A stretch of 64,000 nucleotides of DNA. Source: Verrucomicrobiales bacterium. Its GTDB lineage: Bacteria > Verrucomicrobiota > Verrucomicrobiia > Verrucomicrobiales > DEV007. Numbering within the stretch: the stretch's first letter is position 1; each line of letters opens with the position of its first letter. Location of the stretch: NCBI GenBank assembly GCA_024638765.1, contig JAHEJT010000008.1:1-64000 (forward strand). The letters are read 5' to 3'. The notes beneath the pieces were generated by a model that worked only from the letters and a program-made list of their open reading frames with translations, was not told the origin of the DNA and did no database searches. Below are positions 22,427-40,291 of this stretch, piece after piece. The translations under genes were made by a program, and so were the position numbers.

Positions 22427-23926
22427 ATGAACTCGTCAAGCCTCCTGAAATTCCCCTTTCTTTCGGCCCTCGCCGGAGCCTGTCTTCTCTTCTTTTCGCC
22501 CGGCGCCGCGGCCATTGACAAATCCGCCGTAAAGCCCGCGCCGGCTGCGGAGAAGCAAGAAAACGCCCAGGCGAAACCCGACGCCCGAAACCCGGAGCGC
22601 GACAAGAAGAACTCCCGCAAGAATCAGCCCGGGCAGGCCGGTCAGGCAATACCAAAGGCCGGCCCCAAAGCATCTCCCGCCGGCAAAACACCGGAGGGTT
22701 CCGGCACCGTCATCACCGTCTCCGGCAAAGCGCAGGACGAGAAAGTTTCCCGCGAAAAGGCCGCAAGCCGCGACGAGGAATACTTGAAGCGCCTCAGCGC
22801 CGAAGTCGCCCGGATCACGCTGGAACGCGACAAGATCGTCGCCGAGAATATCATCGCCAAGGAAAAGATCATCAAGGAACTCGCGGCGCGCGAAGCCGAG
22901 ACCGAGCGCAAGGACATGGAAATTGATGAAGCCGAAACCGAGCTCAAGCGCATCACCGCGGTCCAGAAAGCCGGCCTGGAAAAGGAATTGACCGAAATGC
23001 GGGCCGAGAAAGAGCGTCTCGTCCTTCAGAGCGAAATCGCCAAGGCCAAGACCGAGGCCGAGCTGAGCAAACTGAAACTCTTAGAAGAAGAGAGAAAGTC
23101 CCGGCTCTCGGAGTTGAACTCCGCGATCGAACAGAAGGAGAAAGAGTTCAAAGCCAACCAGTACGCCGAGCGCAAGCCCGTTTACCTGGAAAAACCGCTG
23201 CAGGGGAAACAAATCGTCGTCAGCGATCGTCGAATCGCGCTCAACGGCCCCATTCACAGTGAAACCGCGGATTACATTTCCGAGCGAATCAATTACTTCA
23301 ACAACAAGGATCAGAAACTGCCCATCTTCATCGTCATCGATTACTCTCCGGGCGGCTCGGTGATGTCGGGATATAAGATTCTCAAGGCCATGGAAGGCAG
23401 CGAAGCGCCGATTCATGTCATCGTGAAATCTTTCGCCGCCAGCATGGCAGCCTGCATCACGACCCTGGCGGACACGTCCTACGCCTATCCCAACGCACTT
23501 GTCCTGCACCACCAGATCAGCGGTTTTGCCTACGGAAACCTGACGCAGCAGCGCGAGTTCGTGGAGGAAGCGGAAGAATGGTGGCGGCGCCTCGCCGGAC
23601 CGGTCGCCAAAAAAATGGGCATCGGCCTCGAGGAATTTATCGAGCAAATGTATTCTAATTCTTCCTCCGGAGACTGGACCGAATTCGCAGATAAAGCACG
23701 GAACCTCAAGTGGGTGGACCATATCATTGAGGAAGTGCGCGAAACTTCCCTGATCAAGCATCCCGACGCCGAATCGGACGAGAGGCAGACCGAATCTTCC
23801 ACCTATCATTATGGGCTGCAGGAACTCAGGGATAAAGACGGCGATCCTTACGTGGTGCTTCCCCGCCTGGCGCCCTTCGATTACTACTGGCTCTACAATC
23901 CGGACAGCTATTACCGGATGAAGTGA
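22427..23926 (+). CDS. Exported ClpP-like serine protease with coiled-coil domain
   Basis: A 499-residue protein with a signal peptide (about 1-29, LAGACLLFFSPGAAA), a Lys/Pro/Ala-rich linker to about 95, a long coiled coil (about 105-245) and a ClpP-fold domain (about 255-440). The ClpP triad appears intact: S339 in SFAASMAA, H362 in LHHQ and D416 in SGDWTEF; SPGGSV is the oxyanion-hole loop. ClpP itself is cytosolic and lacks both signal peptide and coiled coil. This is more like a secreted or membrane-attached ClpP/SppA relative found in PVC bacteria, with no ATPase partner outside the membrane. Substrate unknown. The C-terminal 60 residues are Tyr/Pro-rich (FDYYWLYNPDSYYRMK at the end). 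Confidence 0.82.
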   Translation: MNSSSLLKFPFLSALAGACLLFFSPGAAAIDKSAVKPAPAAEKQENAQAKPDARNPERDKKNSRKNQPGQAGQAIPKAGPKASPAGKTPEGSGTVITVSGKAQDEKVSREKAASRDEEYLKRLSAEVARITLERDKIVAENIIAKEKIIKELAAREAETERKDMEIDEAETELKRITAVQKAGLEKELTEMRAEKERLVLQSEIAKAKTEAELSKLKLLEEERKSRLSELNSAIEQKEKEFKANQYAERKPVYLEKPLQGKQIVVSDRRIALNGPIHSETADYISERINYFNNKDQKLPIFIVIDYSPGGSVMSGYKILKAMEGSEAPIHVIVKSFAASMAACITTLADTSYAYPNALVLHHQISGFAYGNLTQQREFVEEAEEWWRRLAGPVAKKMGIGLEEFIEQMYSNSSSGDWTEFADKARNLKWVDHIIEEVRETSLIKHPDAESDERQTESSTYHYGLQELRDKDGDPYVVLPRLAPFDYYWLYNPDSYYRMK

Positions 23927-25269: not shown

Positions 25270-25824
25270 TCAGATCTTGTCCTCGATACTCCGGACCATG
25301 TTGCGGACGTGGGCGGCCTTGCCGGTCCGCGGCTGAAGAATCACCAGACTGCGCTCGTAACATCCCCAGCGCAATATCTCGATATCCACATGACGCACGC
25401 CCCAGGCCCGCATGGAAGTCATGTTCGGCTTGTAAATGTCAATGGTTTCGGTGCCCACAAGCGCACTGCCGTAATCGTCAACCTCGTAAATGTGTGGCTG
25501 TCCCACGATGCGGAACAAGGTGCCCACCGGGTAAACCGACCAATCTGCGGCGGCACTCCGGACAGTCCCGTATTTGAGCCGGTCGCCGGTGGCGGACTTC
25601 ATGCCATACTTCCAGCTGTCGCGTTCCTGGTGCGTGTAAGCGGTGGTCCGGACAGTCTGAATGGAACGCTTGTGACCATCGGGTACGACGCGTCCCCACC
25701 GGAACATCGATTCTTTGCTCACAGCGTGCGAGGTGGAACGGCCGACGTTCTGGGTGGTCGAACAACTGACCGCTCCCAGAGCGATACAAACGAGAGCGAA
25801 GAGGGCAGCACTGCGAGACATCAT
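25270..25824 (-). CDS. Lipoprotein with 3D (Asp-Asp-Asp) domain
   Basis: A 184-residue protein, taking the ATG pair at 25819-25824 as start because it opens a typical lipoprotein signal (FALVCIALGAVSC, lipobox Cys at 21). The upstream in-frame extension is A+T-rich and less likely. The C-terminal half carries the 3D domain: TTAYTHQE, PVGTLFRIVG, VDDYGSAL and TIDIYKPNM contain the conserved Asp residues of the MltA/RpfB-type double-psi barrel. Such domains usually cleave or bind peptidoglycan glycan strands. It would sit in the outer membrane or periplasm. It lies 134 bp downstream of the AAA+ ATPase gene on the same strand. Confidence 0.78.
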   Translation of the reverse strand: MMSRSAALFALVCIALGAVSCSTTQNVGRSTSHAVSKESMFRWGRVVPDGHKRSIQTVRTTAYTHQERDSWKYGMKSATGDRLKYGTVRSAAADWSVYPVGTLFRIVGQPHIYEVDDYGSALVGTETIDIYKPNMTSMRAWGVRHVDIEILRWGCYERSLVILQPRTGKAAHVRNMVRSIEDKI

Positions 25825-25958
25825 CCTTAAAGCTATCTTAATAATCCGGAGTAAAAAAGCAATTATAGCGAGAGCTGACAAAATTTCTAGAAGAAACTTG
25901 GTGAATCTAATAAACCTTAAAAACCGGCTCTCCGTCAAGACTAAAATTGAGAATGCTT

Positions 25959-27656
25959 TCAATTACGAAACGCATTTGGTATAAAACTCATATCGCTGGC
26001 CTCTTTTACCGCCAATCCGATCTGAAACTCCATCACTTCCCGCGGCACCGGGTTCTGGTATTCCCGCAAACATTCCCCCAGCGCCTCCACCGCCCCCAGG
26101 TCCCGCGTCCTGCTCGCCCGGTAAACCTTCACCGCCAACGACTCCGCCGCCCCCGGCGTGACCCATTCCGGAATCATCCCCGCGATCTCCTCCCCCGCGT
26201 CCACCGGCAAATCCACCTTGAGCTTGCGACAGAGGGCCCGGATCAAGGCGTAACCCTCCTCCGCCGTGGTGGCGGGAAAGAGGGGAATCTTCACGTCCAC
26301 CCGGCCCGGCCTTTTCAAATCGACCTCAATCAGGTCCGGCCGGCTCGAGGCCAGGATCCACAAAACTCGGCCCCGGTTGGCCGTGTCGCTCATCTCCTTG
26401 GCCATCATCGAGTAGACCCGGCCCGAGACGCCGGAATCACCGCTCCCAACATCGCGACTCCCCAGGGCCTGATCCGCCTCGTCGATGAAGACCACGCACC
26501 GTCCCAGCGCCTCGAGTAAACGAAAAATCTTTTCCAGGTTGCCCTCCGTGCTGCCGACCCAGCGGTCCCGAAAATTCTTGAACTTCACCACCGGCACCGC
26601 AGCCTCGCCCGCCAGGCACTCGACCAGGTAAGTCTTGCCAGTCCCCACGGGGCCGCAGAGAAGATACCCCATCGGCATGGCGCGAAGATCGTTCTGTCGC
26701 CACAAGGCGATGTCCTGCCGAAACCACTCCTTGACGGCCTCGTGCCCCACCACGTCATCGAGCGATCGATGCGACTCGATGAACTCGATCAGCCCCTGGC
26801 AGTCTTTCTCCACGAGGTCTTTCTTCAATTCCGCCAAGTCTTCGTGCGACAGTGATTCCCCCGAAAACTCATTGGTCTTGAGGAGACCTTCGACCGAGCT
26901 GAGGGTCGCCCCCGCCAGTTGGCCCGCCGGCTTCTCGAGGGCACCGTCGAATCCCGACAGCGCCGCCGGATACCGCGCCGCCAGATGCTCCAGGGCCGGC
27001 TCGAGGTGGGCGGCAGAGGGCACCGGCACCCGCACCTGACCGACCCGGGGATTGTTCACGATGAGCGGGTGCAGATCATTGAGGTTTTCCGTGATCAGAA
27101 ATGTCGTCAGGTTGTGCTCAAGGAAATGCGTTTCCGTGGCCCAGGAACGCACTACCGAGGCCATGGCATTAAGTTCGTAATTCAAACCGCCGCGCACGGC
27201 CGGCAGCACCAGGTGCGCCGCGCGGACGATAACCGCCACCCCCACGCGCCGGTGAGTTTCGTCTTCGTCCGCTCCCTCTTCCTCCGCTCCGCCGGCTCCG
27301 GTGGTCCGGCCCAGGTTGCAACAATACCGCAGGTAATGGCTGATATAGGCGATGGCTTCCTGAGGCTGGCGAGGCATCGCACTTCCCGAGCGAGAGGAAG
27401 GCCACTGGGAAAAAATCTTTTCCCCCGCCGCATTCACCCGGAGTCCTTCACCGAGATCGTACGTAAGAATGACATCGAATTTTTCGAGCTGCTCCTCCCG
27501 GAGATAATCCAGGAGGCTGCCGAGCCGCGCCTCATCGCCTTTCCTCCAGAAGAGGCGGTCGTTGACGTTCCCGCTGAGGATGAACTGATTGGCGGCGCCA
27601 CTCAGATACAACGTCCGGATTTCCTCCGACCACTCCGGCACTACCGCGGAACTCAT
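25959..27656 (-). CDS. AAA+ ATPase paired with PspA
   Basis: A 565-residue protein with a degenerate alpha/beta N-terminal domain (about 1-215; LYLSGAANQFILSGNVND), a helical linker (about 255-320) and a classic-clade AAA+ module: Walker A GPVGTGKT (335-342), pore loop with aromatic residue in RWVGSTEGN (365-373), Walker B VVFIDEAD (388-395), sensor 1 ILASSRPD and Arg finger candidates in LKRPGRVD (448-454). The C-terminal helical lid follows. The pore loop resembles Vps4/katanin/FtsH-type unfoldases. It lies 43 bp after pspA on the same strand, so the two very likely form an operon. Its role in remodelling PspA assemblies is inference. Confidence 0.87.
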   Translation of the reverse strand: MSSAVVPEWSEEIRTLYLSGAANQFILSGNVNDRLFWRKGDEARLGSLLDYLREEQLEKFDVILTYDLGEGLRVNAAGEKIFSQWPSSRSGSAMPRQPQEAIAYISHYLRYCCNLGRTTGAGGAEEEGADEDETHRRVGVAVIVRAAHLVLPAVRGGLNYELNAMASVVRSWATETHFLEHNLTTFLITENLNDLHPLIVNNPRVGQVRVPVPSAAHLEPALEHLAARYPAALSGFDGALEKPAGQLAGATLSSVEGLLKTNEFSGESLSHEDLAELKKDLVEKDCQGLIEFIESHRSLDDVVGHEAVKEWFRQDIALWRQNDLRAMPMGYLLCGPVGTGKTYLVECLAGEAAVPVVKFKNFRDRWVGSTEGNLEKIFRLLEALGRCVVFIDEADQALGSRDVGSGDSGVSGRVYSMMAKEMSDTANRGRVLWILASSRPDLIEVDLKRPGRVDVKIPLFPATTAEEGYALIRALCRKLKVDLPVDAGEEIAGMIPEWVTPGAAESLAVKVYRASRTRDLGAVEALGECLREYQNPVPREVMEFQIGLAVKEASDMSFIPNAFRN

Positions 27657-27699
27657 GGGGATTCAGGAGGGCACCACCCTCCGGGGAAACCGGCTCGCT

Positions 27700-28443
27700 C
27701 TACATGGTCTTGACCGGGCCCTCGTCCGCGACGTCCTCCTCGCCGCCTCCACCGCCCTCGGAGTCGAGCATGAGGCCTTCTTCAGCCGCAAAATCCGCCA
27801 AGGCCAGGTCTTCCATGGCCTTCTGCTCGGCTTCCATCTCCGAAATTTCCCCCATGTCCAGGGTATCGCGCGCCACCCGGGCGCGGCCTGCGGCTTTCTC
27901 GCGCTCCGATTCCACCATTTCCTCCAGCCGGTGCAAGGTGTCTCCGGAACCGCCGATCTCGGTGATCATGCCCGCGGCCATTTCGTTGAGCTCGGCCAGG
28001 GCGCTCTTCACTTTCATGTCCTGAATATTCCGCCGGAGCGCTTCCATCTTTTCGCGCGCCGCGGTCACGCTGACGTCGCGCGCCTTGAGCAATTCCTTGT
28101 AAGTGGTTTCCGCCTCCCCAAGCTGCTTGGCATTCTCCGAGTGCTCGCGCTTGATGGTCTGAAGCCGCAACGCATATCTGCCCGCGGCCTCGCGGTTGCC
28201 GGCCTTGAGGTGGGCCGCGGCCTTGGCGCGCAGTTCCCGCTCTTCTCCTTCGAGCTTCTTGACCTGCGACATCAGTCGCTCGCAAAGCCCGGCGTGTGCC
28301 GCCAGCCCCTTGTTGTATTCGGATATCTGCTTGCGCAGGTTTTCGCGCTCCACCTCCAGAAGCGCCTCGGGATTTTTCTTTTCCAGCCCGGACACAAACA
28401 GACCAAAAAACCCCCGAATCAAATTCCCTAATCGCTTGAACAT
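27700..28443 (-). CDS. pspA: PspA/IM30 family protein
   Basis: A 247-residue, almost wholly helical protein. The N-terminal amphipathic helix MFKRLGNLIRGFFGLF precedes long coiled-coil helices (about 20-190) typical of PspA/Vipp1, which are structural relatives of ESCRT-III. The C-terminus is acidic and Gly-rich (about 215-247). The ATG at 28441-28443 is used because it begins the amphipathic helix; upstream codons in frame are low complexity. PspA proteins oligomerise on membranes under envelope stress and can remodel bilayers. The next gene encodes an AAA+ ATPase. No PspF, PspB or PspC is seen nearby. Confidence 0.9.
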   Translation of the reverse strand: MFKRLGNLIRGFFGLFVSGLEKKNPEALLEVERENLRKQISEYNKGLAAHAGLCERLMSQVKKLEGEERELRAKAAAHLKAGNREAAGRYALRLQTIKREHSENAKQLGEAETTYKELLKARDVSVTAAREKMEALRRNIQDMKVKSALAELNEMAAGMITEIGGSGDTLHRLEEMVESEREKAAGRARVARDTLDMGEISEMEAEQKAMEDLALADFAAEEGLMLDSEGGGGGEEDVADEGPVKTM

Positions 28444-28635
28444 ATTGCTTGGATCTTTCTTCCAGTTTGACTCCTCCACAGGAAATGTGAACGAAAAGGA
28501 CGGGGAGCGCGACCCTAAACTTGAAACTCCGCGCCCCCTCCAAAGGACACCAGGAGGGCCGGACACGATCAGATTCCAGCGGTGTGCAGAAAGGCGTTGC
28601 CCCAGGGAACGACTCCCGTTTATATAGATCCCGGA

Positions 28636-29511
28636 ATGTCACCATCCGCCGTCGCCGGCCTCAGGGCGCTGAAATCTCATCTCCTCGAACTTCAGGCCAA
28701 GGGCCGGACGCACATTCAGTTCAGCGAGGAGACAAGACTTACCCTGGCTTCCTTACCGGGCCGCGCAAAGACCGCGCCCGCCCGTCCCGCCGCCGTGGTC
28801 GCGGAAACCACACCGGTCCGCCCAGCGCCCGCGACCGCTTCGCCGCCCGCACAACATGCCAGCCCCGGCGGCATCGTCCCCGAGGGCGCAACCAAGACTG
28901 AAAAGCTCGATTACCTCCGAAACCTGGTCGCCCACTGCGAGCGCAGCGGCGCACTCGAATCCCTGCGCGACACCATGGTCTTCGCGGTGGGCAATCCGGA
29001 CGCCGATCTCATGTTCGTCGGGGAAGCACCCGGCGCCGACGAAGAAGCTCAGGGCGAGCCCTTCGTGGGTAAAGCAGGTCAATTACTCACAAAGATCATT
29101 CAGGCAATGGGATTGAAACGCGAGGATGTCTATATCTCAAACATCGTCAAATACCGGCCCGCCATGCCCGACCAGGGATACGGAAACCGGAAACCAACCT
29201 CCCCGGAAATGGAGGCCTGCCTGCCTTATGTGCTCGCCGAAATCGACGTGGTCCAACCGAAAGCCGTCGTCGCCCTGGGCGCCACCGCCGCCGAAGGCCT
29301 CCTCGGATTGACGGAATCCGTCGGCCGGATGCGCGCCCATTTCCACGAGCTCGCAGGCATCCCGGTCATGGTGACCTACCACCCCTCTTACCTGCTTCGC
29401 AACGGCGCCATCAGTGAGAAACGCAAGGTCTGGGAAGATATGCTCCTGGTGATGGAGAAGCTCGGCATCCCGATTTCAGAGAAGCAACAGGCCTTCTTCT
29501 TGAAGAAGTAG
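28636..29511 (+). CDS. Uracil-DNA glycosylase, family 4-like
   Basis: A 291-residue UDG-superfamily protein. The uracil pocket motif GEAPGADEEAQG, the FVGKAGQLL helix, SNIVKYRP with the catalytic-region Asn and the HPSYLLR motif identify family 4. An N-terminal 90-residue Ala/Pro-rich extension precedes the domain. Two of the four usual iron-sulfur cysteines are replaced: VKCRP is VKYRP, and the N-terminal C-x2-C has only one Cys (AHCERS). The EAC cysteine remains. The ATG at 28636 is chosen; an in-frame GTG at 28582 would add 18 residues. Neither has a strong ribosome binding site. It is convergent with ftsZ. Confidence 0.88.
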   Translation: MSPSAVAGLRALKSHLLELQAKGRTHIQFSEETRLTLASLPGRAKTAPARPAAVVAETTPVRPAPATASPPAQHASPGGIVPEGATKTEKLDYLRNLVAHCERSGALESLRDTMVFAVGNPDADLMFVGEAPGADEEAQGEPFVGKAGQLLTKIIQAMGLKREDVYISNIVKYRPAMPDQGYGNRKPTSPEMEACLPYVLAEIDVVQPKAVVALGATAAEGLLGLTESVGRMRAHFHELAGIPVMVTYHPSYLLRNGAISEKRKVWEDMLLVMEKLGIPISEKQQAFFLKK

Positions 29512-29667
29512 CCTCCGAGAGGGCGTCGCGGCCCGTGCTCCAGGCTGTCCGGCGGGTTGCCACCCCCCCCTACCATTACGCAGATAATCCCCGCTTCGTG
29601 AGTAAACCCGACGCTCCGCGGCGGGCTTTCTGGGGCTAACCCCGTCGAGGAGCGCCGGGACTACTTC

Positions 29668-31077
29668 CTACTCGCGGTCTCTCAGGAAAGTCGGCACATC
29701 GAGATCCTCGCCATCGATAATGGTGGGTTCGCTTTTCTCAAAGCGCCCGCGCGCCCCGGGATTGAGCTTGAGCTCCTGCTGAGAAGCCTTCCGCTTGGCA
29801 GCTGCGGCCACCGCGACGGCTTCTTCTTCCGTTGGCTCCACGTCCACGACAACTTCCTCACTCGGCGAATCAGCCGCTTCCTTCAAAACCGGAAGCGACA
29901 CCGGCTCCTGCGCTTGCTCGGCGTCTTCGACCGTGACCGGTGCTTCGACTTCAATCTGTTCTTCCGGCGGCGGCGCGGCGACACGGGCGGGAGCCACTTC
30001 CTCCTCCTGCGCATCGGCGGCCGGCACGGATGCAGACGCGGCGGCTGCAGTCGGCTCCGCGTCGGATTCTTCGGCCTCCTCTTCCTCCAGCCGTCTCATC
30101 GCCATGCGCGGCAGCGAAGTAATCAGCGTGATGCCGATGTCATCGCCCATGGTGGTATCCGTGGAAGTGCCGAAGAAAATCTGGGCGTCGTCACGCAGCG
30201 TTTTTCCGAGCTCTTTCATGAGCAGCTCCACTTCGAAAAGAGTGAGCGTTTCTCCGCCGCAAATATGAACCAGGACGTTGGATGCCTGGGCAAGTTGCCC
30301 GCGATCGAGGAGCGGGCTCTTGAGAGCGTCCCGGATGGCGGCCTGGGCGCGGTTATCACCCTTGGCGCGGCCGTATCCGAAGAGGCAGCGTGAATCGGTG
30401 TTGCGCAGGGCGCTGATCAAGTCATCGAGGCCGATGTGGATCAATCCCGTCTTGGTCACCAGTTGGGTCACCGCGCGCACGCTCTGGCTGATAATTTTGT
30501 CCGCGGCAGCAAATGCTTTCTGAATGCCCTCCTTCGCGAGGATAAGTTCACCCATACGGTCATTTTCAAAGATAATCGTCGCGTTGGCGGAGGTGCCCAG
30601 TTGCTCCAGCGCGGTTTGCGCCTGCTCGAGCCTGCGCCGCCCCTCGAAGGAAAACGGAAAGGTCGCAAAGACAACCACGAAAGCGCCTTCCTGCTCGGCG
30701 ATGCGCGCCACCACCGGAGCGGCGCCGCTGCCGGTCCCACCGCCCAAACCCACGCAAATAAATATCATCGACTGCCCTTTGACAGCCTCCCGGATCTCGT
30801 CGGCAGCTTCCATGGCCGCTTCTCGTCCCAGTTCCGGATCGCCCCCGGCGCCCAGACCTTTGGTTAACTCTCTGCCCAGCTGAACCTTCTTACTGGAGAC
30901 CGAAGTGGAGAGAGCCCGGACATCCGTGTTCATGGAAAGGAGATCCGCTTCTTCCATGCCTTCCAGGGCGATGCGGTCCAGCGAATTGGCGCCGGCCCCT
31001 CCGATTCCAAAAACACGCACGGAAAATTCACTTCCGTTCGCCAGATCTTTCTGCGTTGAGGTCTTGTATTCAATCAT
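29668..31077 (-). CDS. ftsZ: Cell division protein FtsZ
   Basis: A 469-residue tubulin-like GTPase forming the division ring. The GTP-binding signature GGGTGSG is at 112-118, and the SMNTDVRAL and PFSFEG segments are conserved. The T7 catalytic loop that should read N-x-D-x-x-D is H214-I-G216-L-D-D219 (HIGLDD), confirmed in the DNA at 30421-30450: the Asn and the first Asp are lost, the second Asp is kept. A long acidic Ala/Val/Glu-rich linker (about 335-445) ends in the C-terminal peptide DLDVPTFLRDRE, which should bind FtsA. It is the last dcw gene, with 158 bp between ftsA and ftsZ that may hold a promoter. Confidence 0.97.
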   Translation of the reverse strand: MIEYKTSTQKDLANGSEFSVRVFGIGGAGANSLDRIALEGMEEADLLSMNTDVRALSTSVSSKKVQLGRELTKGLGAGGDPELGREAAMEAADEIREAVKGQSMIFICVGLGGGTGSGAAPVVARIAEQEGAFVVVFATFPFSFEGRRRLEQAQTALEQLGTSANATIIFENDRMGELILAKEGIQKAFAAADKIISQSVRAVTQLVTKTGLIHIGLDDLISALRNTDSRCLFGYGRAKGDNRAQAAIRDALKSPLLDRGQLAQASNVLVHICGGETLTLFEVELLMKELGKTLRDDAQIFFGTSTDTTMGDDIGITLITSLPRMAMRRLEEEEAEESDAEPTAAAASASVPAADAQEEEVAPARVAAPPPEEQIEVEAPVTVEDAEQAQEPVSLPVLKEAADSPSEEVVVDVEPTEEEAVAVAAAAKRKASQQELKLNPGARGRFEKSEPTIIDGEDLDVPTFLRDRE

Positions 31078-31235
31078 CTCTGAGTTCCTATTATGTTTGG
31101 TCTGTCGATTGGATTTTGTTTCCGGGCAAATAAAATGGGGGGAGACCGCTTCAGCGGGCGGGCGAACCGGGGTAATCCAGTGGAAATACCGGTGGCCGCC
31201 TCCAGCCCGCAGGCATCGGTGCGTCGCCTATTCGA

Positions 31236-32465
31236 TCAGAAGATTGCGCGGGATACACCAAAAAACTCCGTGAATTTTCGGCCAATTCGCCCGAGCACCG
31301 GGCCGGAAGGACGCTCGGTTTCGAGAACTTGCGCATACCGGATCAATCCGATGGGAGTGGCATACTGAGGGTTCTCGAAGGTCGCAGTCAGCCCGCTGAT
31401 GGGGGTGGAATTGGCTCGGTGGACAGGCATCCCGTAAACCTCTTCCGCCAGCCGGTCGAATCCATTGAGCAAGCTGCAGCCACCGGTCAGAAAGATACCG
31501 GCTCCGACCTGATCCAGGTTCCCCGCATCGTCCAATTTATTCTTCACCAACTCCAGGATCTCCCGCGCACGCACGTTGATGATTTCATTGAGCAGGGCCC
31601 GCTCGATGGGCTTCCCGACAAATCGGGTATCGTCAGAGAGATCAATGGTCTCGCCGGGCTCCGCTTCCCCGATCATGGCGTTACCCTCTTCAATTTTCAG
31701 CTTCTCCGCTTTAGCCAGGGGAATCTTGAGCACGATGGAAAGATCATTGGTGATGTGATCGCCACCGACTCCGATACAACCTGAGGCGGTCACGGCCCCG
31801 TCATTGTAAAGCACGTAATCCGCTGTGCCTCCGCCGACGTCGATAACTACGGCGCCGCGTTTCTTGGCTTCCTGGTTGAGCACGACCTGGGCCGACGCTA
31901 TCGCGCTGACGACGACATCCTCCACCTCCAGCGGAATCTCGCGAACACACCGGATCGTATTCTGAATCCGTGTCCGGATCCCGTGGATGATATGATAGTC
32001 CGCTTCAAGTTTTCGTCCGAGCATGCCCACGGGATCGAGCACCTTTTCCTGGCCGTCGACGTAATAATGCTGAATGATGCTGTGAAGAAACGCGTTCTGT
32101 TGAGGAATGGAGACATCCCGCGCGATTTCTTTTACCTCCTCCAGATCCTCTTCCGTGATCTCATTCTGGTCGTCTGGAATCCGGATACACCCGCGGTTAT
32201 TCACGCTCTCGATATGCGCTCCGGTGATGCTCAGGAAAACATTGCGCACCATGACGTCGCTGCGATCCTCCGCCCGCACCAGCGCATCGTGCAAACAAGT
32301 TTGTGCCGTCCCGAAGTCGACAATCTCCCCCTTGCGCACGCCCCGCGACGGCGCCTGACCCACACCCAGGATTTTAATGGCGCCGTCGCCTTTGACCTCC
32401 CCCACGACGACGCAGATTTTCGAAGTTCCTATTTCCAGGCCAACGTAAATATTCGATCGTGACAT
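31236..32465 (-). CDS. ftsA: Cell division protein FtsA
   Basis: A 409-residue actin-fold protein tethering FtsZ to the membrane. The phosphate 1 motif GLEIGTSKI, the phosphate 2 motif VIDVGGGTADY and the adenosine motif FLTGGCSLLNG are present. The 1C domain (about 85-165) characteristic of FtsA is inserted after the first motif. A C-terminal amphipathic helix (VLGRIGRKFTEFFGV) provides membrane binding. The TATA-box-like order ftsQ-ftsA-ftsZ is the standard dcw arrangement. The gap to ftsQ is 47 bp. Confidence 0.97.
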   Translation of the reverse strand: MSRSNIYVGLEIGTSKICVVVGEVKGDGAIKILGVGQAPSRGVRKGEIVDFGTAQTCLHDALVRAEDRSDVMVRNVFLSITGAHIESVNNRGCIRIPDDQNEITEEDLEEVKEIARDVSIPQQNAFLHSIIQHYYVDGQEKVLDPVGMLGRKLEADYHIIHGIRTRIQNTIRCVREIPLEVEDVVVSAIASAQVVLNQEAKKRGAVVIDVGGGTADYVLYNDGAVTASGCIGVGGDHITNDLSIVLKIPLAKAEKLKIEEGNAMIGEAEPGETIDLSDDTRFVGKPIERALLNEIINVRAREILELVKNKLDDAGNLDQVGAGIFLTGGCSLLNGFDRLAEEVYGMPVHRANSTPISGLTATFENPQYATPIGLIRYAQVLETERPSGPVLGRIGRKFTEFFGVSRAIF

Positions 32466-32512
32466 ACTGCGTCGTTACTCAAATCGTGAACAAATAACTT
32501 CTGCCGCCGGTC

Positions 32513-33550
32513 TCATCCTCGACTCAAAATACTTCGAATAGCATCAAGGTGTCGCTCCGCCTCGCCGCTTCCAGGGTCGGTCGAAGCAGGCTGCCGGTAC
32601 ACCGGCTGGGCCTCCTGGCGCAGAGATTCTACGCCATCAGCCGGAAAATTGAAATACGTAATCGGGATATTCTTGCGCGCCATCAGGTTGAGAGTCGCCA
32701 TCTGGCGATTCTGGGCAAGGGTGTGGGCCATGATCAACTTCAAATCCTGGAGCTGCGCCCCGATATCCTGCATCCCGAAGGTCACCTCCGCGTCGCTGTT
32801 GTAAGTCGCTTTCATGGAATACTCATTGCGCAATTCCACCTCCACGATCTCCAATTGCTCCTCAAAGAAGATCTCGTTGCTCCGCCCAATCAGGTCCAGC
32901 GCGCGAATCACCTGCTCTGACTCAATGCGCGCGCCGGGCTTGACACGCGCCAGGCTGCGCACCCGGACCACCGGCAGCGCGAGGTATCGGCGCAGCAGCG
33001 CCTCGCAAGGCAACACCGCTCCATCGATATCCAGAAGAAATCCCCGATGCGATGTCTGTGAGCGAATCCCCAGCGCCGGACATTCGAGCCATGCCATCGG
33101 GAACCGCTCGAAGATCCGGATCTTGAGCTGGTTCGGCAACTGTCTCGTGACTTCCACCGACTCCACCTGCGCCAGGTTCCCAAGACGCGCCCGGACATCC
33201 TCGATATCAATGCTCAGCAGGTTCATGCCTTCCGTGATACCCGCTTCCCCCACGATGCGCTGGTAATCCAGTCCCCCGTTGCTCTCGACCTGGAGATCAG
33301 TTAAGGAGAACTCGACGTTTTCGTAAAATGTCTTTTCATAAATCCATCGCGCGCAAATCCCCAACGCGATCACTGATGCCGCCACCAGCACGGACTTGAA
33401 CACCCAGCGTACCACCGCCACCCGCCGCAACCTGGTCTCGGCCTTCGAACGCATCCTCACGTCCAACTGTTGAAGCTTCTTGTTGCGGGCAGGCTGATGC
33501 TGGACGCGGTGATTCGGGTTCCGCCGTTTCGTATTCGAGCTGTTTTTCAT
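32513..33550 (-). CDS. ftsQ: Cell division protein FtsQ/DivIB
   Basis: A 345-residue bitopic divisome protein. A very basic cytosolic leader (1-47) precedes one membrane segment (about 48-66, WVFKSVLVAASVIALGIC) and a POTRA domain (about 82-150; EGMNLLSIDI and VTRQLPNQLKIRIFERFPMAWL). The beta domain follows and ends with a low-complexity tail. FtsQ links the FtsL/B module to FtsK and the rest of the divisome. The leader is longer than in E. coli. It lies 18 bp after ddl. Confidence 0.92.
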   Translation of the reverse strand: MKNSSNTKRRNPNHRVQHQPARNKKLQQLDVRMRSKAETRLRRVAVVRWVFKSVLVAASVIALGICARWIYEKTFYENVEFSLTDLQVESNGGLDYQRIVGEAGITEGMNLLSIDIEDVRARLGNLAQVESVEVTRQLPNQLKIRIFERFPMAWLECPALGIRSQTSHRGFLLDIDGAVLPCEALLRRYLALPVVRVRSLARVKPGARIESEQVIRALDLIGRSNEIFFEEQLEIVEVELRNEYSMKATYNSDAEVTFGMQDIGAQLQDLKLIMAHTLAQNRQMATLNLMARKNIPITYFNFPADGVESLRQEAQPVYRQPASTDPGSGEAERHLDAIRSILSRG

Positions 33551-34517: not shown

Positions 34518-36842
34518 CTATGTGTACTTGCCCGAGGTAAATAAGTCTTCTTCCCCGAGAATCTGCACTTCCGTCTCCAGTTCGATATTCCGTTCCTCTC
34601 GCGCCGCCGACTTGATCTGATCGATAATCGATAAGACCTCTGCCGCCGAGGCCTCTCCCTCATTGACGATAAAATTGCCGTGCACCTCCGAAACCCGCGC
34701 CGCACCCACCCGCAAATCTTTCAATCCCAACTCTTCCACCAACCGGCCGGCGGGACATTCTTCGGGATTCTTGAATATACAGCCCGCGCTGGCGGCCACC
34801 GGCTGCGAGTCGCGCCGCTTGCGCATGGACTCTTCCATACGCGCGTCGATCTGCGCCGCTTCCGTGGGCCGGCCCCGGAACACCGCCGAAACCGCGTAGT
34901 TATCCCGCAGCTCGGGAACATTCCGGTAATAACTTACAATTTCATCGGCCGATTTCTCCTCCAGACTCCCTCCACCATCAAGATAGCGGACGCTGACGAC
35001 CTGATCGAAAGTGGCGCTCCCCATAGCGCCCGCATTCATGCGCAGTCCGCCGCCCACGTTCCCCGGGATTCCCTCCATCCACTCGAATCCTCCCAGGCCT
35101 GCGTTTTTCGCGGCGGCGGCCACCTGCTTGAAGCGCGCGCCCACTCCGGCCACGATGCAATCCCCCTCCACCCGCACCTCGGAGAATTCCCCCTTGGAAG
35201 GATGCGCAACCACCCCGGCGATGCCCCCGTCCCGCACCAGCAGGTTCGAGCCGCGGCCGATAACCCTCAGGGGAATACTTCGCTCCCGGCAGAAGCGCAC
35301 CAGCCGCGCAAAGCCCTCCACGCTGCGGGTCTCCACCCAGAATTGCGCGGGCCCGCCAACCCGCAAGGTCGTGTGGCGGCTCATCGGCTCGTAAAGCCTG
35401 AACACGGCTTCTTCCTCCTGCACGCATTCCCGCATTGCATCCAGCACCGCCATGTCTGCTGCAATCCGCGTGGCTGCTTCGTGCACGTTACCGGCCCCGA
35501 GACTGAGAAAGAAATCGCCTTCCCTCAAATAATTACCGACCCGAAGATGGGCGCGATCGAGCTCGGGAGTATAAAATGCCTCCACCCCCCGGCCCTGCTT
35601 CAGGATCTCGTCGACGACGGTCTGTCCGCTGATCCCGGGAATCGGCGGTTCGCTGGCCGGATAAACGTCCGTCACAAAGACGGCGTCCACCCCCTCGAAA
35701 GCGCTCCCGAACTCCGCGGCCAGCGATCGCGTGCGCGTGTAACGATGGGGCTGGAATAAACACACCAGCCTCTTCGCCTGCAAGGTGCGCGCCGTGGCAA
35801 GCGTAACCGCAATCTCTGTAGGATGATGCCCATAATCATCCACGATCGAAATTGTTCCAGTCTTGTATTTCCATTCGAACCGTCGCCGGGCCCCGCGAAA
35901 TGTCCCCAATGCTTTTGTGATGGCCTCGAATTCCACGCCCAGCTCGGACGCCAGCGCGATCACACTTAAAGAATTCAGCACGTTGTGTCGCCCCGGTATC
36001 CCCAAGGTCGCTTCGCCGAGACTCGCGCCCCCGCGACAGACCTCGAATACCATGCTCTCCCCCTGCTCCTGCACGGCGCGGGCCGAGTAATCCAGGCCCC
36101 TCTCCCAACCGTATGAAATCGATGCTTGCCGCTCCGCGGCCAGCGAAACGGCCCCGCCGTCTTCGGCGCAGTAAATAATCTTTCCCGATGTCTGATCGAG
36201 AAATTGCGCAAACACCTTCCGGATCGCGGCGACGTCCTCGTAAAAATCGAGATGTTCCGCCTCGACATTGAGCAATATCGCGTGCTCGGGATGAAAGAGC
36301 ACCAGTGTCCCGTCGCTTTCATCGCCTTCCGCGACCATGTAATCCCCAGCCTTCTCCCAGTGCGCGTTGGTTCCCAATACCGGGATCTCCGCGCCCACGT
36401 AATGCGAACACCTGACCCCCGCCTGCCGAAGCACGTGCGCCGCCATCGCGGAGGTGGTCGTCTTCCCGTGAGTCCCCGCAACCAGAATTCCCCGCTTCCC
36501 TTCCATGATCGCGGCCAGGGCTTCCGCCCGGCGCACCAGTGTAATCCCAAGTTTCATGGCCGTGTCGAAGGCGACGTTGCCTTTCTTTACCGCCGAAGAA
36601 TAAATCACCAACTCGGCGTCCTCGACTGCTTCCGCGGTGTGAGGACAGGAAAAATCGAGCCCCACGCGCTGCAACCGTTCCGTCTCCACGGTGGTCACCT
36701 TGTCGGAACCGCTGACCCGGTGCCCAAGCCCGAGCAACAGCGACGCCAGGCCGCTCATGCCCGAACCGGCCACACCGATGAGGTGGATCCTCATCGGGCG
36801 TCTCTGCCCTTGATGCAGGGCCTGGGTCCATGATTTTTTCAT
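34518..36842 (-). CDS. murC/murB: MurC-MurB fusion: UDP-MurNAc-L-alanine ligase and UDP-GlcNAc-enolpyruvate reductase
   Basis: A 774-residue two-domain enzyme. Residues about 17-465 are MurC: IHLIGVAGSGMSGLA, the ATP loop GTHGKTTTSAMA and the DDYGHHPTEI metal motif. Residues about 480-774 are a short type II MurB with the FAD motifs IGRGSNLLV and EGIPGNVGGGLRMNAG. MurB's proton donor Ser is Cys here (ASAGCIFKNP), a change known in some type II enzymes. The start ATG overlaps the murG stop as ATGA. The fusion couples the UDP-MurNAc-forming reduction to the first peptide-adding step. No separate murB is in the cluster. Confidence 0.95.
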   Translation of the reverse strand: MKKSWTQALHQGQRRPMRIHLIGVAGSGMSGLASLLLGLGHRVSGSDKVTTVETERLQRVGLDFSCPHTAEAVEDAELVIYSSAVKKGNVAFDTAMKLGITLVRRAEALAAIMEGKRGILVAGTHGKTTTSAMAAHVLRQAGVRCSHYVGAEIPVLGTNAHWEKAGDYMVAEGDESDGTLVLFHPEHAILLNVEAEHLDFYEDVAAIRKVFAQFLDQTSGKIIYCAEDGGAVSLAAERQASISYGWERGLDYSARAVQEQGESMVFEVCRGGASLGEATLGIPGRHNVLNSLSVIALASELGVEFEAITKALGTFRGARRRFEWKYKTGTISIVDDYGHHPTEIAVTLATARTLQAKRLVCLFQPHRYTRTRSLAAEFGSAFEGVDAVFVTDVYPASEPPIPGISGQTVVDEILKQGRGVEAFYTPELDRAHLRVGNYLREGDFFLSLGAGNVHEAATRIAADMAVLDAMRECVQEEEAVFRLYEPMSRHTTLRVGGPAQFWVETRSVEGFARLVRFCRERSIPLRVIGRGSNLLVRDGGIAGVVAHPSKGEFSEVRVEGDCIVAGVGARFKQVAAAAKNAGLGGFEWMEGIPGNVGGGLRMNAGAMGSATFDQVVSVRYLDGGGSLEEKSADEIVSYYRNVPELRDNYAVSAVFRGRPTEAAQIDARMEESMRKRRDSQPVAASAGCIFKNPEECPAGRLVEELGLKDLRVGAARVSEVHGNFIVNEGEASAAEVLSIIDQIKSAAREERNIELETEVQILGEEDLFTSGKYT

Positions 36843-37948
36843 GCAGGTGCTTCTTCGATGGCGCGTGCAATTTCTTCGGCGGCGTCCCCCGCTCCCAGCT
36901 GCGACGCCTTCTCGGAAAGCGCGGCCAGCCGGGGAGCGTCCCGGCACAACTCGCGGAGCATCTCCGAGAGAACTTCGCCGGTCAGTTCCTTTTCATCCGC
37001 CATTACGGCGGCCCCCGCGCGGACAAAGACCTCGGCATTGCGCCTCTGGTGGTCCTCCGCGGCGTGTGGGTAAGGAATCAAAATAGACGGAACCCCGAAA
37101 AATGCCAGCTCCGCCAGGCTCGATCCTCCCGCCCGCGAAATCGCCAGGTCCGCCACCGTATACGCCATTTGCATCTCGTGACAGAATGGCAGGATCTTTG
37201 TGCGGATCTTGAGGCCGCGACAGGCCTCGGTCACCTCCCCGTGATCGCCCGGCCCGGTCAGATGGATCACCTGCAAAGCTACGCCTGCGCCGTCAAGGAC
37301 TCGCAGCGCTTCGCAGACCAGCCGGTTGACCCTCCGCGCCCCCTGGCTGCCTCCCATCACCAGCAGTGTCTTGACCCCCTCCTCCAATCCAAAAAGGTCC
37401 AGCGCACGCCCCCGGGGCACCGGCTCGCGAAACCCGGCACGCACCGGGGTCCCCACCACCCGGGTCTTGCTCTTGGGAAAATAATTTGCGGCTTCTGCGA
37501 CCCCCAGTAACACCACGTCACAGAAACGCGCTGTCAAGCGGTTGGCTTTCCCGGGAATCGCGTTGGAATCGTGCACCAGTGTGCGGCACCCCTTGCGCTT
37601 GCCCGCCACGATCGGCGGAGTCGAAGTGAACCCTCCCATCCCCAGGACCGTGTCCGCTCTGAACTCGTCCACCAGCCCGCGGCAGACACCATAAGCTTTC
37701 CAGGATTGCGTTAAGAAATTCACGGTCTTTAATGAAAATACTCTCCCTAGTCCGATCGCCGGTAACTTGCGAAACTCGAAGTCCCCATGCCCCTCGCTCG
37801 CCAGCCGGTCGATCTCTTTTTCAGAAATCAAAATCAACACCTCGTGACCACGCCGCCGCAGGCAGTCGGCCACCGCGATACCAGGAAAAAGATGCCCGCC
37901 GGTTCCACCGCATGCAATGATGACGCGTCGTTGCCCATCCTTACTCAC
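36839..37948 (-). CDS. murG: MurG N-acetylglucosaminyltransferase
   Basis: A 369-residue GT-B enzyme that adds GlcNAc to lipid I at the inner face of the membrane. The N-terminal loop GGTGGHLFPG, the GGSQGARRVN loop and AGGSSLAELA near the sugar-nucleotide site are clear. I choose the GTG at 37946-37948, which gives a normal length; TTG at 38018-38020 directly after ftsW would add 24 codons of low-complexity sequence. No strong ribosome binding site precedes either. Its stop overlaps the MurC-MurB start (ATGA), implying translational coupling. Confidence 0.95.
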   Translation of the reverse strand: MSKDGQRRVIIACGGTGGHLFPGIAVADCLRRRGHEVLILISEKEIDRLASEGHGDFEFRKLPAIGLGRVFSLKTVNFLTQSWKAYGVCRGLVDEFRADTVLGMGGFTSTPPIVAGKRKGCRTLVHDSNAIPGKANRLTARFCDVVLLGVAEAANYFPKSKTRVVGTPVRAGFREPVPRGRALDLFGLEEGVKTLLVMGGSQGARRVNRLVCEALRVLDGAGVALQVIHLTGPGDHGEVTEACRGLKIRTKILPFCHEMQMAYTVADLAISRAGGSSLAELAFFGVPSILIPYPHAAEDHQRRNAEVFVRAGAAVMADEKELTGEVLSEMLRELCRDAPRLAALSEKASQLGAGDAAEEIARAIEEAPA

Positions 37949-39295: not shown

Positions 39296-40291
39296 CTAAC
39301 GCTGCTCTGGAATATTAATCACCAATCCCACGCGAAGACTGCGCGCGTCGGTGATCTTATTCGCCCGCATCAGCTCCTGGTAATCGATGCCGAATCGCCG
39401 TGCGATTCCGTAAGGCGTATCACCGGAGACCACCGTGTAAGTGCGGGCTCCCGAAGCGGCAGGTGCGGGTGTCGTCACGGGCGCGAGCGTGGGCGCGGGA
39501 GCCGGCCTGACGACCGGAGCCGGAGCCGGTTCGAGTTTCGCCGCGGCGACTTCGCGCGGCGCATCCAGGGTCTCGGCCCGGACCGCCTTGGACGCAGGTG
39601 TCGCAGGCACAGGCGCCTCGGCCGCAGCCACGGGCTTCACCACCGCGGTCGGCGTCCCCGGCACCGGATTCTCCGCGATGTCCGCCTTCACGACCGCGGT
39701 CGGAACCGGTTCTCCCAGCAGTCTCTGAATGTCTTCCGGCTGGACTGCGCTGATACGCCGGTTCGGCACCAGCAGCACCATACCCGGGTAAACGCTCTTG
39801 CCTTCATCCAGCTTGTTCAATTCTTCCAACTCCGAAACGCTGACGCCCAACTTGCGGGCCACTGCCAGCAAATTGTCTCCGGAGCGCACCCGGTAATGCT
39901 TCATCCCAAGACGGGACGGATCGTCGACAACGATGTTCGGCTCGTCTTTCACGATCTCCTGCCGCGGCATGGTCCGTTCCCGGACCTCCGGGGTCACGGG
40001 CGCAACCGCGGTCTCCTTCTTGATCTCCGGAGCCGCCCGCACCGTGGTGGTATCGAGATCATCCGATGTCCTCTCGATCATTTTGAAAGCGAGGATTCCG
40101 CCAACCGCAACGATGTGCAGAATCAATACGATCCCGAACACGCGCGCCAGCTTTACGTTGGGCACTTCGGTTTGCCACTCTTGTTCTTCGGTTACGTGCG
40201 CGGAGAATCGGTGCGGCTTCGCCCAGAGGGTTTGCAGCCGCAGTTTTCCCCGTTTCACGCCCTTCCGGCTTATGGATGTCTTATCATTCAT
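39296..40291 (-). CDS. LysM-domain membrane protein in the dcw cluster
   Basis: A 331-residue bitopic protein. A basic cytosolic leader (about 1-48) is followed by a membrane segment (about 50-68, ARVFGIVLILHIVAVGG). Two LysM peptidoglycan-binding domains follow: about 131-178 (YRVRSGDNLLAVARKLG) and about 285-330 (YTVVSGDTPYGIARRFG), separated by an Ala/Pro/Val-rich linker. It begins 9 bp after murD and precedes ftsW, an arrangement I recall from other Verrucomicrobia. It may anchor the division machinery to the wall. No catalytic domain is present. Confidence 0.88.
   Translation of the reverse strand: MNDKTSISRKGVKRGKLRLQTLWAKPHRFSAHVTEEQEWQTEVPNVKLARVFGIVLILHIVAVGGILAFKMIERTSDDLDTTTVRAAPEIKKETAVAPVTPEVRERTMPRQEIVKDEPNIVVDDPSRLGMKHYRVRSGDNLLAVARKLGVSVSELEELNKLDEGKSVYPGMVLLVPNRRISAVQPEDIQRLLGEPVPTAVVKADIAENPVPGTPTAVVKPVAAAEAPVPATPASKAVRAETLDAPREVAAAKLEPAPAPVVRPAPAPTLAPVTTPAPAASGARTYTVVSGDTPYGIARRFGIDYQELMRANKITDARSLRVGLVINIPEQR

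Follow-up and report, generated by a model that had tools for sequence, protein, structure and literature searches.

A conserved gene pair of PspA and a tandem AAA+ ATPase in Verrucomicrobiales and other phyla: a candidate system for PspA polymer disassembly

Introduction

The window analyzed in this study is a stretch of 64,000 nucleotides from a Verrucomicrobiales bacterium, in which a pspA gene lies next to a gene for a tandem AAA+ ATPase. Comparison of genomes supports this pair as a conserved functional unit. Since the ATPase is almost always inherited with PspA across several phyla, it is also a strong candidate for the missing machine that would disassemble PspA polymers.

PspA, a membrane-repair protein of bacteria, is related to the ESCRT-III scission proteins of eukaryotes. 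Both PspA and Vipp1 of bacteria assemble into ESCRT-III-like polymers, and the machine that dismantles them is a standing question. In recent papers on PspA rods the disassembly factor is left open, with chaperones or PspF mentioned as possibilities (PMC11746142, PMC12358876).

The new elements of this study are the finding that one ATPase family and one PspA subfamily co-occur near-obligately, the terminal motif of PspA and its distribution, a coiled-coil membrane protein that partners the pair in other phyla, and the recognition of the window as an apparently minimal form. An ATPase co-inherited with PspA, together with a short removable motif, makes the question of disassembly directly testable with two proteins. 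If the proposal is true, ESCRT-III polymers would seem to have become coupled to AAA+ motors more than once.

Results

Linkage and co-occurrence of the two genes

The features of the window considered here are as follows.

25270-25962, minus strand: 3D-domain protein, probable cell-wall protein (PF06725, E 2.5e-6; synteny)
25959-27656, minus strand: AAA+ ATPase, 565 amino acids, tandem of a degenerate D1 and an active D2, with activity predicted (PF00004; AlphaFold/Foldseek)
25959-26789, minus strand: D2, AAA+ motor, active by its motifs, residues 290-565 (Pfam; alignment of homologues)
26802-27635, minus strand: D1, predicted degenerate AAA+ domain, approximately residues 8-285, without Walker A or Walker B (structure prediction; motif table)
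27700-28443, minus strand: pspA, 247 amino acids from its ATG, ESCRT-III-superfamily protein of a divergent PspA subfamily (Pfam PF04012; AlphaFold/Foldseek)
27700-27759, minus strand: flexible linker of PspA (Gly/Glu-rich) and terminal motif K-T-M-COOH, residues 245-247 (predicted disorder; motif conservation)
28582-29511, plus strand: uracil-DNA glycosylase (UDG) gene, divergent from pspA (PF03167, E 1.1e-38; synteny)

The pspA gene and the AAA+ gene are on the same strand with 43 bp between them (27657-27699), as the preliminary description of this DNA had reported. The linkage recurs in other genomes of several phyla, which agrees with the proposal of a bacterial pair made in that description. 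ATPase loci were scanned with one genome per species, and the best 80 loci encode proteins approximately 51-65% identical to the ATPase of the window. The genomes are mostly MAGs, and their labels as deposited include Verrucomicrobia, Planctomycetota, Phycisphaerae, Acidobacteria, Deltaproteobacteria, Desulfuromonadales, Sumerlaeota, Abditibacteria and others. In 48 of these 80 loci, pspA immediately precedes the ATPase gene and shares its strand, sometimes with one small gene intervening. Where the genes were unlinked, a PspA of the same subfamily was encoded elsewhere in 30 of 32 genomes: 24 of the 25 that were searched whole, and 6 of the 7 covered by the survey of relatives described below. 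Altogether, 78 of the 80 ATPase-bearing genomes with the best loci contain a PspA of the window type; the two that carry the ATPase without it, one of which is G026, are both MAGs.

Co-occurrence was judged by counts of genomes and genera that are not statistically independent: in 57 relatives, searched with the N-terminal half of the ATPase, both genes were present in 26, the ATPase alone in 1 and neither in 30, and among the genera of the order pspA and the ATPase were found in 15 of 29 and neither in 14 of 29. At the level of the phylum (289 genomes), a close ATPase and a close PspA were found in an identical set of 7 genomes, and two other genomes of the same 289 contain a PspA 46-47% identical, with the ATPase absent.

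The genes are adjacent or nearly so in 15 of the 26 relatives with both and on different contigs in the remaining 11, so a constant operon structure was rejected. In the separated cases UDG is often found next to pspA, and the 3D-domain gene and nth next to the ATPase gene. The window unites these two order-conserved blocks, UDG/pspA and ATPase/3D-domain/nth, which are apart in many relatives. The DNA-repair neighbours nth and UDG, carried along without obvious relation, would suit a purely historical neighbourhood in which two housekeeping genes became adjacent by accident. However, coincidence is effectively excluded because the co-occurrence holds with the genes apart on different contigs, in many genera and in several phyla, with joint absence from nearly half of the genera of the order, and an accidental neighbourhood is regarded as extremely improbable.

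The PspA homologue and its C-terminal motif

The PF04012 (PspA_IM30) model spans residues 2-221 of the pspA product with an E value of 1.8e-7 and a score of 31.5 bits against a curated cut-off of 33.9, a cut-off that most orthologues pass. This is the single PspA_IM30 match in the window genome. A search of PDB sequences with the PspA profile returned no useful match. The AlphaFold model contains helices at residues 2-23, 25-80, 84-139, 142-192 and 197-222, laid out as helix a0, a long a1-a2/3 hairpin, a4 and a5, followed by a disordered tail. The top Foldseek matches of the model are Vipp1, PspA and CdvB at a probability of 1.00, with weak statistics (E 5e-3 to 0.1, TM-scores of approximately 0.5 or lower). 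Judged by profile and predicted fold, the assignment of the product as PspA is sound though divergent, and its polymerisation and membrane remodelling are predicted only. Two genomes of the order, G040 (L177) and G042 (L178), have a canonical PspA (PF04012, E of approximately 1e-40) that does not belong to the ATPase-linked subfamily; G042 carries both the canonical and the ATPase-linked types, and G040 carries the canonical type without the ATPase.

Residues 229-247 of the window PspA are predicted to be disordered in the AlphaFold model. The core of the protein ends with a conserved helix, ALADFAAxEGIxLE, which is followed by a variable linker and then, at the C-terminus or close to it, by a short motif. 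In the relatives of the window this motif is K-T-M-end or E-K-A-M-end, and in most other phyla it is K-T/S-M-G-P followed by a few residues. Variants include K-K-E-M-A/T-P in one clade and T/S-T/S-M-G-P in some Akkermansiaceae. The tally covered 61 AAA-associated PspAs (with two frame-disrupted rows set aside), 24 unlinked and 5 further sequences, and the Met of the motif was invariant in all AAA-associated PspAs with an intact C-terminus examined. The control for specificity was small, with four AAA-less PspAs: the motif is absent from both members of the window subfamily found in AAA-less genomes, which end in ...FEKENSKKS and ...FEKENSKEKTS, and from both of the two canonical PspAs compared. 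Because the motif is present with the ATPase and absent in AAA-less PspAs, its distribution suggests that it is the contact for the ATPase.

The preliminary description had singled out the acidic tail of PspA as a possible engaged element. The tail does contain a conserved element, which is the short Met-containing terminal motif, but the acidic stretch varies between phyla, with a linker that is Gly/Glu-rich in the relatives of the window and Pro/Ala-rich in other phyla. The acidic tail was therefore rejected as the conserved element, and its acidity is a lineage feature.

The AAA+ ATPase

Pfam identifies one AAA domain in the ATPase (PF00004, E 9.6e-26, residues 331-457), which lies within D2. 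The motor domain contains the Walker A motif GPVGTGKT (residues 335-342), the Walker B motif VVFIDEAD (388-393), the pore loop RWVGSTEGN (W366-V367-G368) and the arginine-finger candidates R449/R452. This confirms the intact Walker motifs and W-V-G loop noted in the preliminary description. In an alignment of 35 homologues the key residues of these motifs are invariant or near-invariant. With Walker A and B, an aromatic pore loop 1 and an SRH with candidate arginine fingers, D2 has the features of the classical AAA clade. The sensor-1 Asn is replaced by Ser in all subgroups inspected, and catalysis may therefore be slow or unusual.

The N-terminal region is approximately 290 residues long, rather than the 215 first assigned to it. 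The preliminary description did not recognise it; its predicted fold is that of a degenerate AAA+ domain. In the AlphaFold model of the ATPase (pLDDT 87.6) the order of strands and helices over these residues fits an AAA core with a helical lid, as a high-confidence prediction, and Foldseek matches the full-length model to the tandem AAA proteins Rix7, AFG2 and Cdc48/p97. An invariant G-N-x-x-D is found in D1 at the position of the P-loop. A comparison of D1 with D2 by hhalign found no sequence similarity, so the identification of D1 as AAA+ rests on structure prediction, by which the N-terminal domain is predicted to be an inactive, degenerate AAA+ copy. With such a domain the protein would be a tandem like Cdc48 or Rix7, not Vps4.

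The designation "Vps4-like" did not hold. Scores against NCBIfam models were 70 bits for CDC48, 61 for FtsH, 56 for PAN and 43 for CdvC/Vps4, all under the curated cut-offs. Proteins of the p97/Cdc48, VAT, NVL, AFG2 and Rix7 types account for the 60 best matches to PDB sequences and for the top Foldseek matches. The sequence of the motor domain is closest to those of Cdc48, FtsH, PAN and NVL rather than to that of Vps4/CdvC. Neither an MIT domain nor Vps4_C had a Pfam match in the ATPase at E <= 1. Membership in the Vps4 family was rejected for these reasons: the lack of MIT and Vps4_C matches, a CdvC score below that of CDC48, and best matches of the Cdc48 type. The W-V-G pore loop is general to classical AAA motors and is not specific to Vps4. 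Of the earlier proposal of a bacterial PspA/ATPase pair, the conserved unit stands, by linkage and co-occurrence, and the kinship with Vps4 does not.

The architecture of the ATPase also bears on whether PspA regulates it, in the way that E. coli PspA restrains PspF, with the ATPase performing a separate job that is switched by membrane stress. PspF is a precedent for PspA acting on an AAA+ protein. However, the ATPase of the window is a classical-clade tandem AAA protein with an aromatic pore loop, and the Pfam scan found no sigma-54 activator or DNA-binding domain (only PF00004 and weaker AAA-type matches). In addition, the conserved element sits in the tail of PspA, whereas contact with PspF is made by the coiled coil. 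Regulation of this kind is considered improbable.

Neighbouring genes and the wider operon

The 3D-domain gene downstream of the ATPase gene is a conserved neighbour within the order only, and it is doubtful that it is part of the PspA/ATPase system. UDG is a conserved neighbour of pspA within the order and is probably outside the system.

The pair adjoins a division and cell-wall cluster at its ftsZ-ftsA-ftsQ end (window 25959-33550). A link to division through ftsZ/ftsA was unsupported, with ftsZ/ftsA in 0 of 129 related loci within the fetched flanks. Three further genes of the window were noted by eye: an 809-codon ORF (34518-36947) with MurC-like and MurB-like parts, apparently a murC-murB fusion; a protein of apparent LysM type, with one membrane helix, encoded between ftsW and murD in the cell-wall cluster (39296-40291); and an apparent signal-peptide protein that has a coiled coil together with a serine protease domain resembling ClpP/SppA (22427-23926).

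A third gene frequently accompanies the pair in other phyla, either between the two genes or next to them. Its product is a protein of 230-320 residues that combines two apparent membrane helices at the N-terminus with a coiled coil (TM coiled-coil protein). The gene, which goes with the pair outside the order of the window, is located between pspA and the ATPase gene in L128, L142, L144, L147, L148, L156, L164 and L171, and further loci with it are L083-L087, L145, L150, L151 and L160. The family has no convincing Pfam match, and it was rejected as a PspA/Snf7 homologue since hhalign against the PspA profile found nothing. A single-sequence search of the window genome, which is incomplete, gave no convincing homologue. 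The member in one acidobacterial locus (L148:5089-5889) carries RLMGPEEPPTTI at its C-terminus, which resembles the terminal motif of PspA, possibly by chance. Some operons in other phyla also include genes for an ABC ATPase, for a permease and for solute-binding proteins that have OmpA or VWA domains, and remoter relatives of the ATPase (approximately 30% identity) sit in comparable operons. On this comparison the window appears to be a reduced or minimal form, with PspA and the ATPase alone.

In some Verrucomicrobia small membrane proteins of 124-132 amino acids, if intact, are encoded between pspA and the ATPase gene (L116, L118, L120, L130), and they end in RRxYRDVKPLY or RDIKPLY. The intergenic small proteins of some Verrucomicrobia (124-132 and 180-184 amino acids) matched no Pfam family above the cut-off.

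The TM coiled-coil protein encoded between or beside the pair in other phyla could be the true substrate or adaptor. PspA may also itself be the adaptor, with its terminal motif recruiting the ATPase to damaged membrane, where the ATPase would extract or remodel other membrane proteins. The targets in other phyla would perhaps be the TM coiled-coil protein or the co-encoded ABC transporter/OmpA complex. The operons that add the TM-hairpin coiled-coil protein, the ABC ATPase and permease, and the OmpA/VWA solute-binding proteins are consistent with this role, and are partly those described by Ravi et al. (PMC11237479). A tether would also suit a flexible tail with a terminal motif, and extraction would suit a Cdc48-like architecture. 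However, the window and many relatives have PspA and the ATPase alone; the transporter genes are dispensable and PspA is not. An adaptor role is considered the main rival to the preferred reading, with roughly one chance in four.

Discussion

Proposed mechanism

Our preferred reading, held with somewhat better than even confidence, is that PspA itself is the target of the ATPase, which would engage the flexible C-terminus of PspA and pull or rearrange the subunits of the polymer. PspA would form an ESCRT-III-type polymer that coats and remodels the inner membrane. The ATPase would form a two-tiered ring, probably a hexamer, which would catch PspA by the flexible C-terminus with its conserved Met-containing motif. 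The inactive D1 tier would dock the substrate and the active D2 tier would thread it through the W-V-G pore loops. Subunits of PspA would be extracted or the polymer rearranged, and the coat would then be cleared or turned over after membrane stress. The direct support for this mechanism consists of the pairing of the genes, their co-occurrence when apart, the intact motor, the predicted degenerate D1, and the disordered tail with its motif; from these we infer the hexamer, the physical contact, the motif as the point of contact, the threading, the disassembly and the link to membrane stress.

A bolder and more tentative reading, to which we give roughly one chance in three, is that the pair represents an independent bacterial ESCRT-III/ATPase module. 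The K-[TS]-M-G-P or K-T-M-end motif would be read by the dead D1 ring, as a counterpart of MIM-MIT recognition that arose apart from Vps4.

Comparison with known systems

The type of system and the core idea are already known, as both were published by Ravi et al. 2024 (PMC11237479). That paper describes PspA next to a protein with two AAA+ domains, the N-terminal one an inactive copy, and from gene neighbourhoods proposes ATP-dependent remodelling. The gene pair, the architecture of the ATPase and the functional proposal are alike in the window, the likeness being one of linkage and architecture. The PspA/AAA/ABC/permease/PBPB-OmpA operons given there match those near homologues of the window ATPase, for example L160. 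The window differs from the long operons of that paper in being a dyad without transporter or TM coiled-coil genes. In addition, the association is called occasional in the same paper, whereas in our analysis the ATPase family and the PspA subfamily are almost always together. No mention of the terminal motif was found in the accessible text of Ravi et al. (PMC11237479). No experimental study of the PspA/ATPase pair was found in the open literature searched, and papers outside it could exist.

Three further systems resemble the pair in part. First, the E. coli PspA-PspF system likewise pairs PspA with an AAA+ protein, but PspF is a sigma-54 activator with an HTH, and the window ATPase belongs to the classical AAA clade and lacks an HTH. 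Secondly, Cdc48/p97, NVL/Rix7 and AFG2 share the predicted two-AAA architecture and provide the best sequence and fold matches. However, D1 of the window ATPase is without Walker A/B, identity in the fold alignments is only approximately 15%, and the protein starts at D1 without a recognisable Cdc48 N-domain. Lastly, the pair resembles ESCRT-III/Vps4 (CdvB/CdvC) in that a polymer protein of the ESCRT-III superfamily adjoins a classical AAA+ motor, although the window ATPase is unlike Vps4/CdvC in its degenerate D1 tandem, in the absence of detectable MIT and Vps4_C, and in a sequence nearer to Cdc48/NVL/FtsH. The tails of ESCRT-III proteins carry MIM motifs, which are the basis for comparing the tails. 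As in those proteins, the window PspA has a flexible linker followed by a conserved terminal motif.
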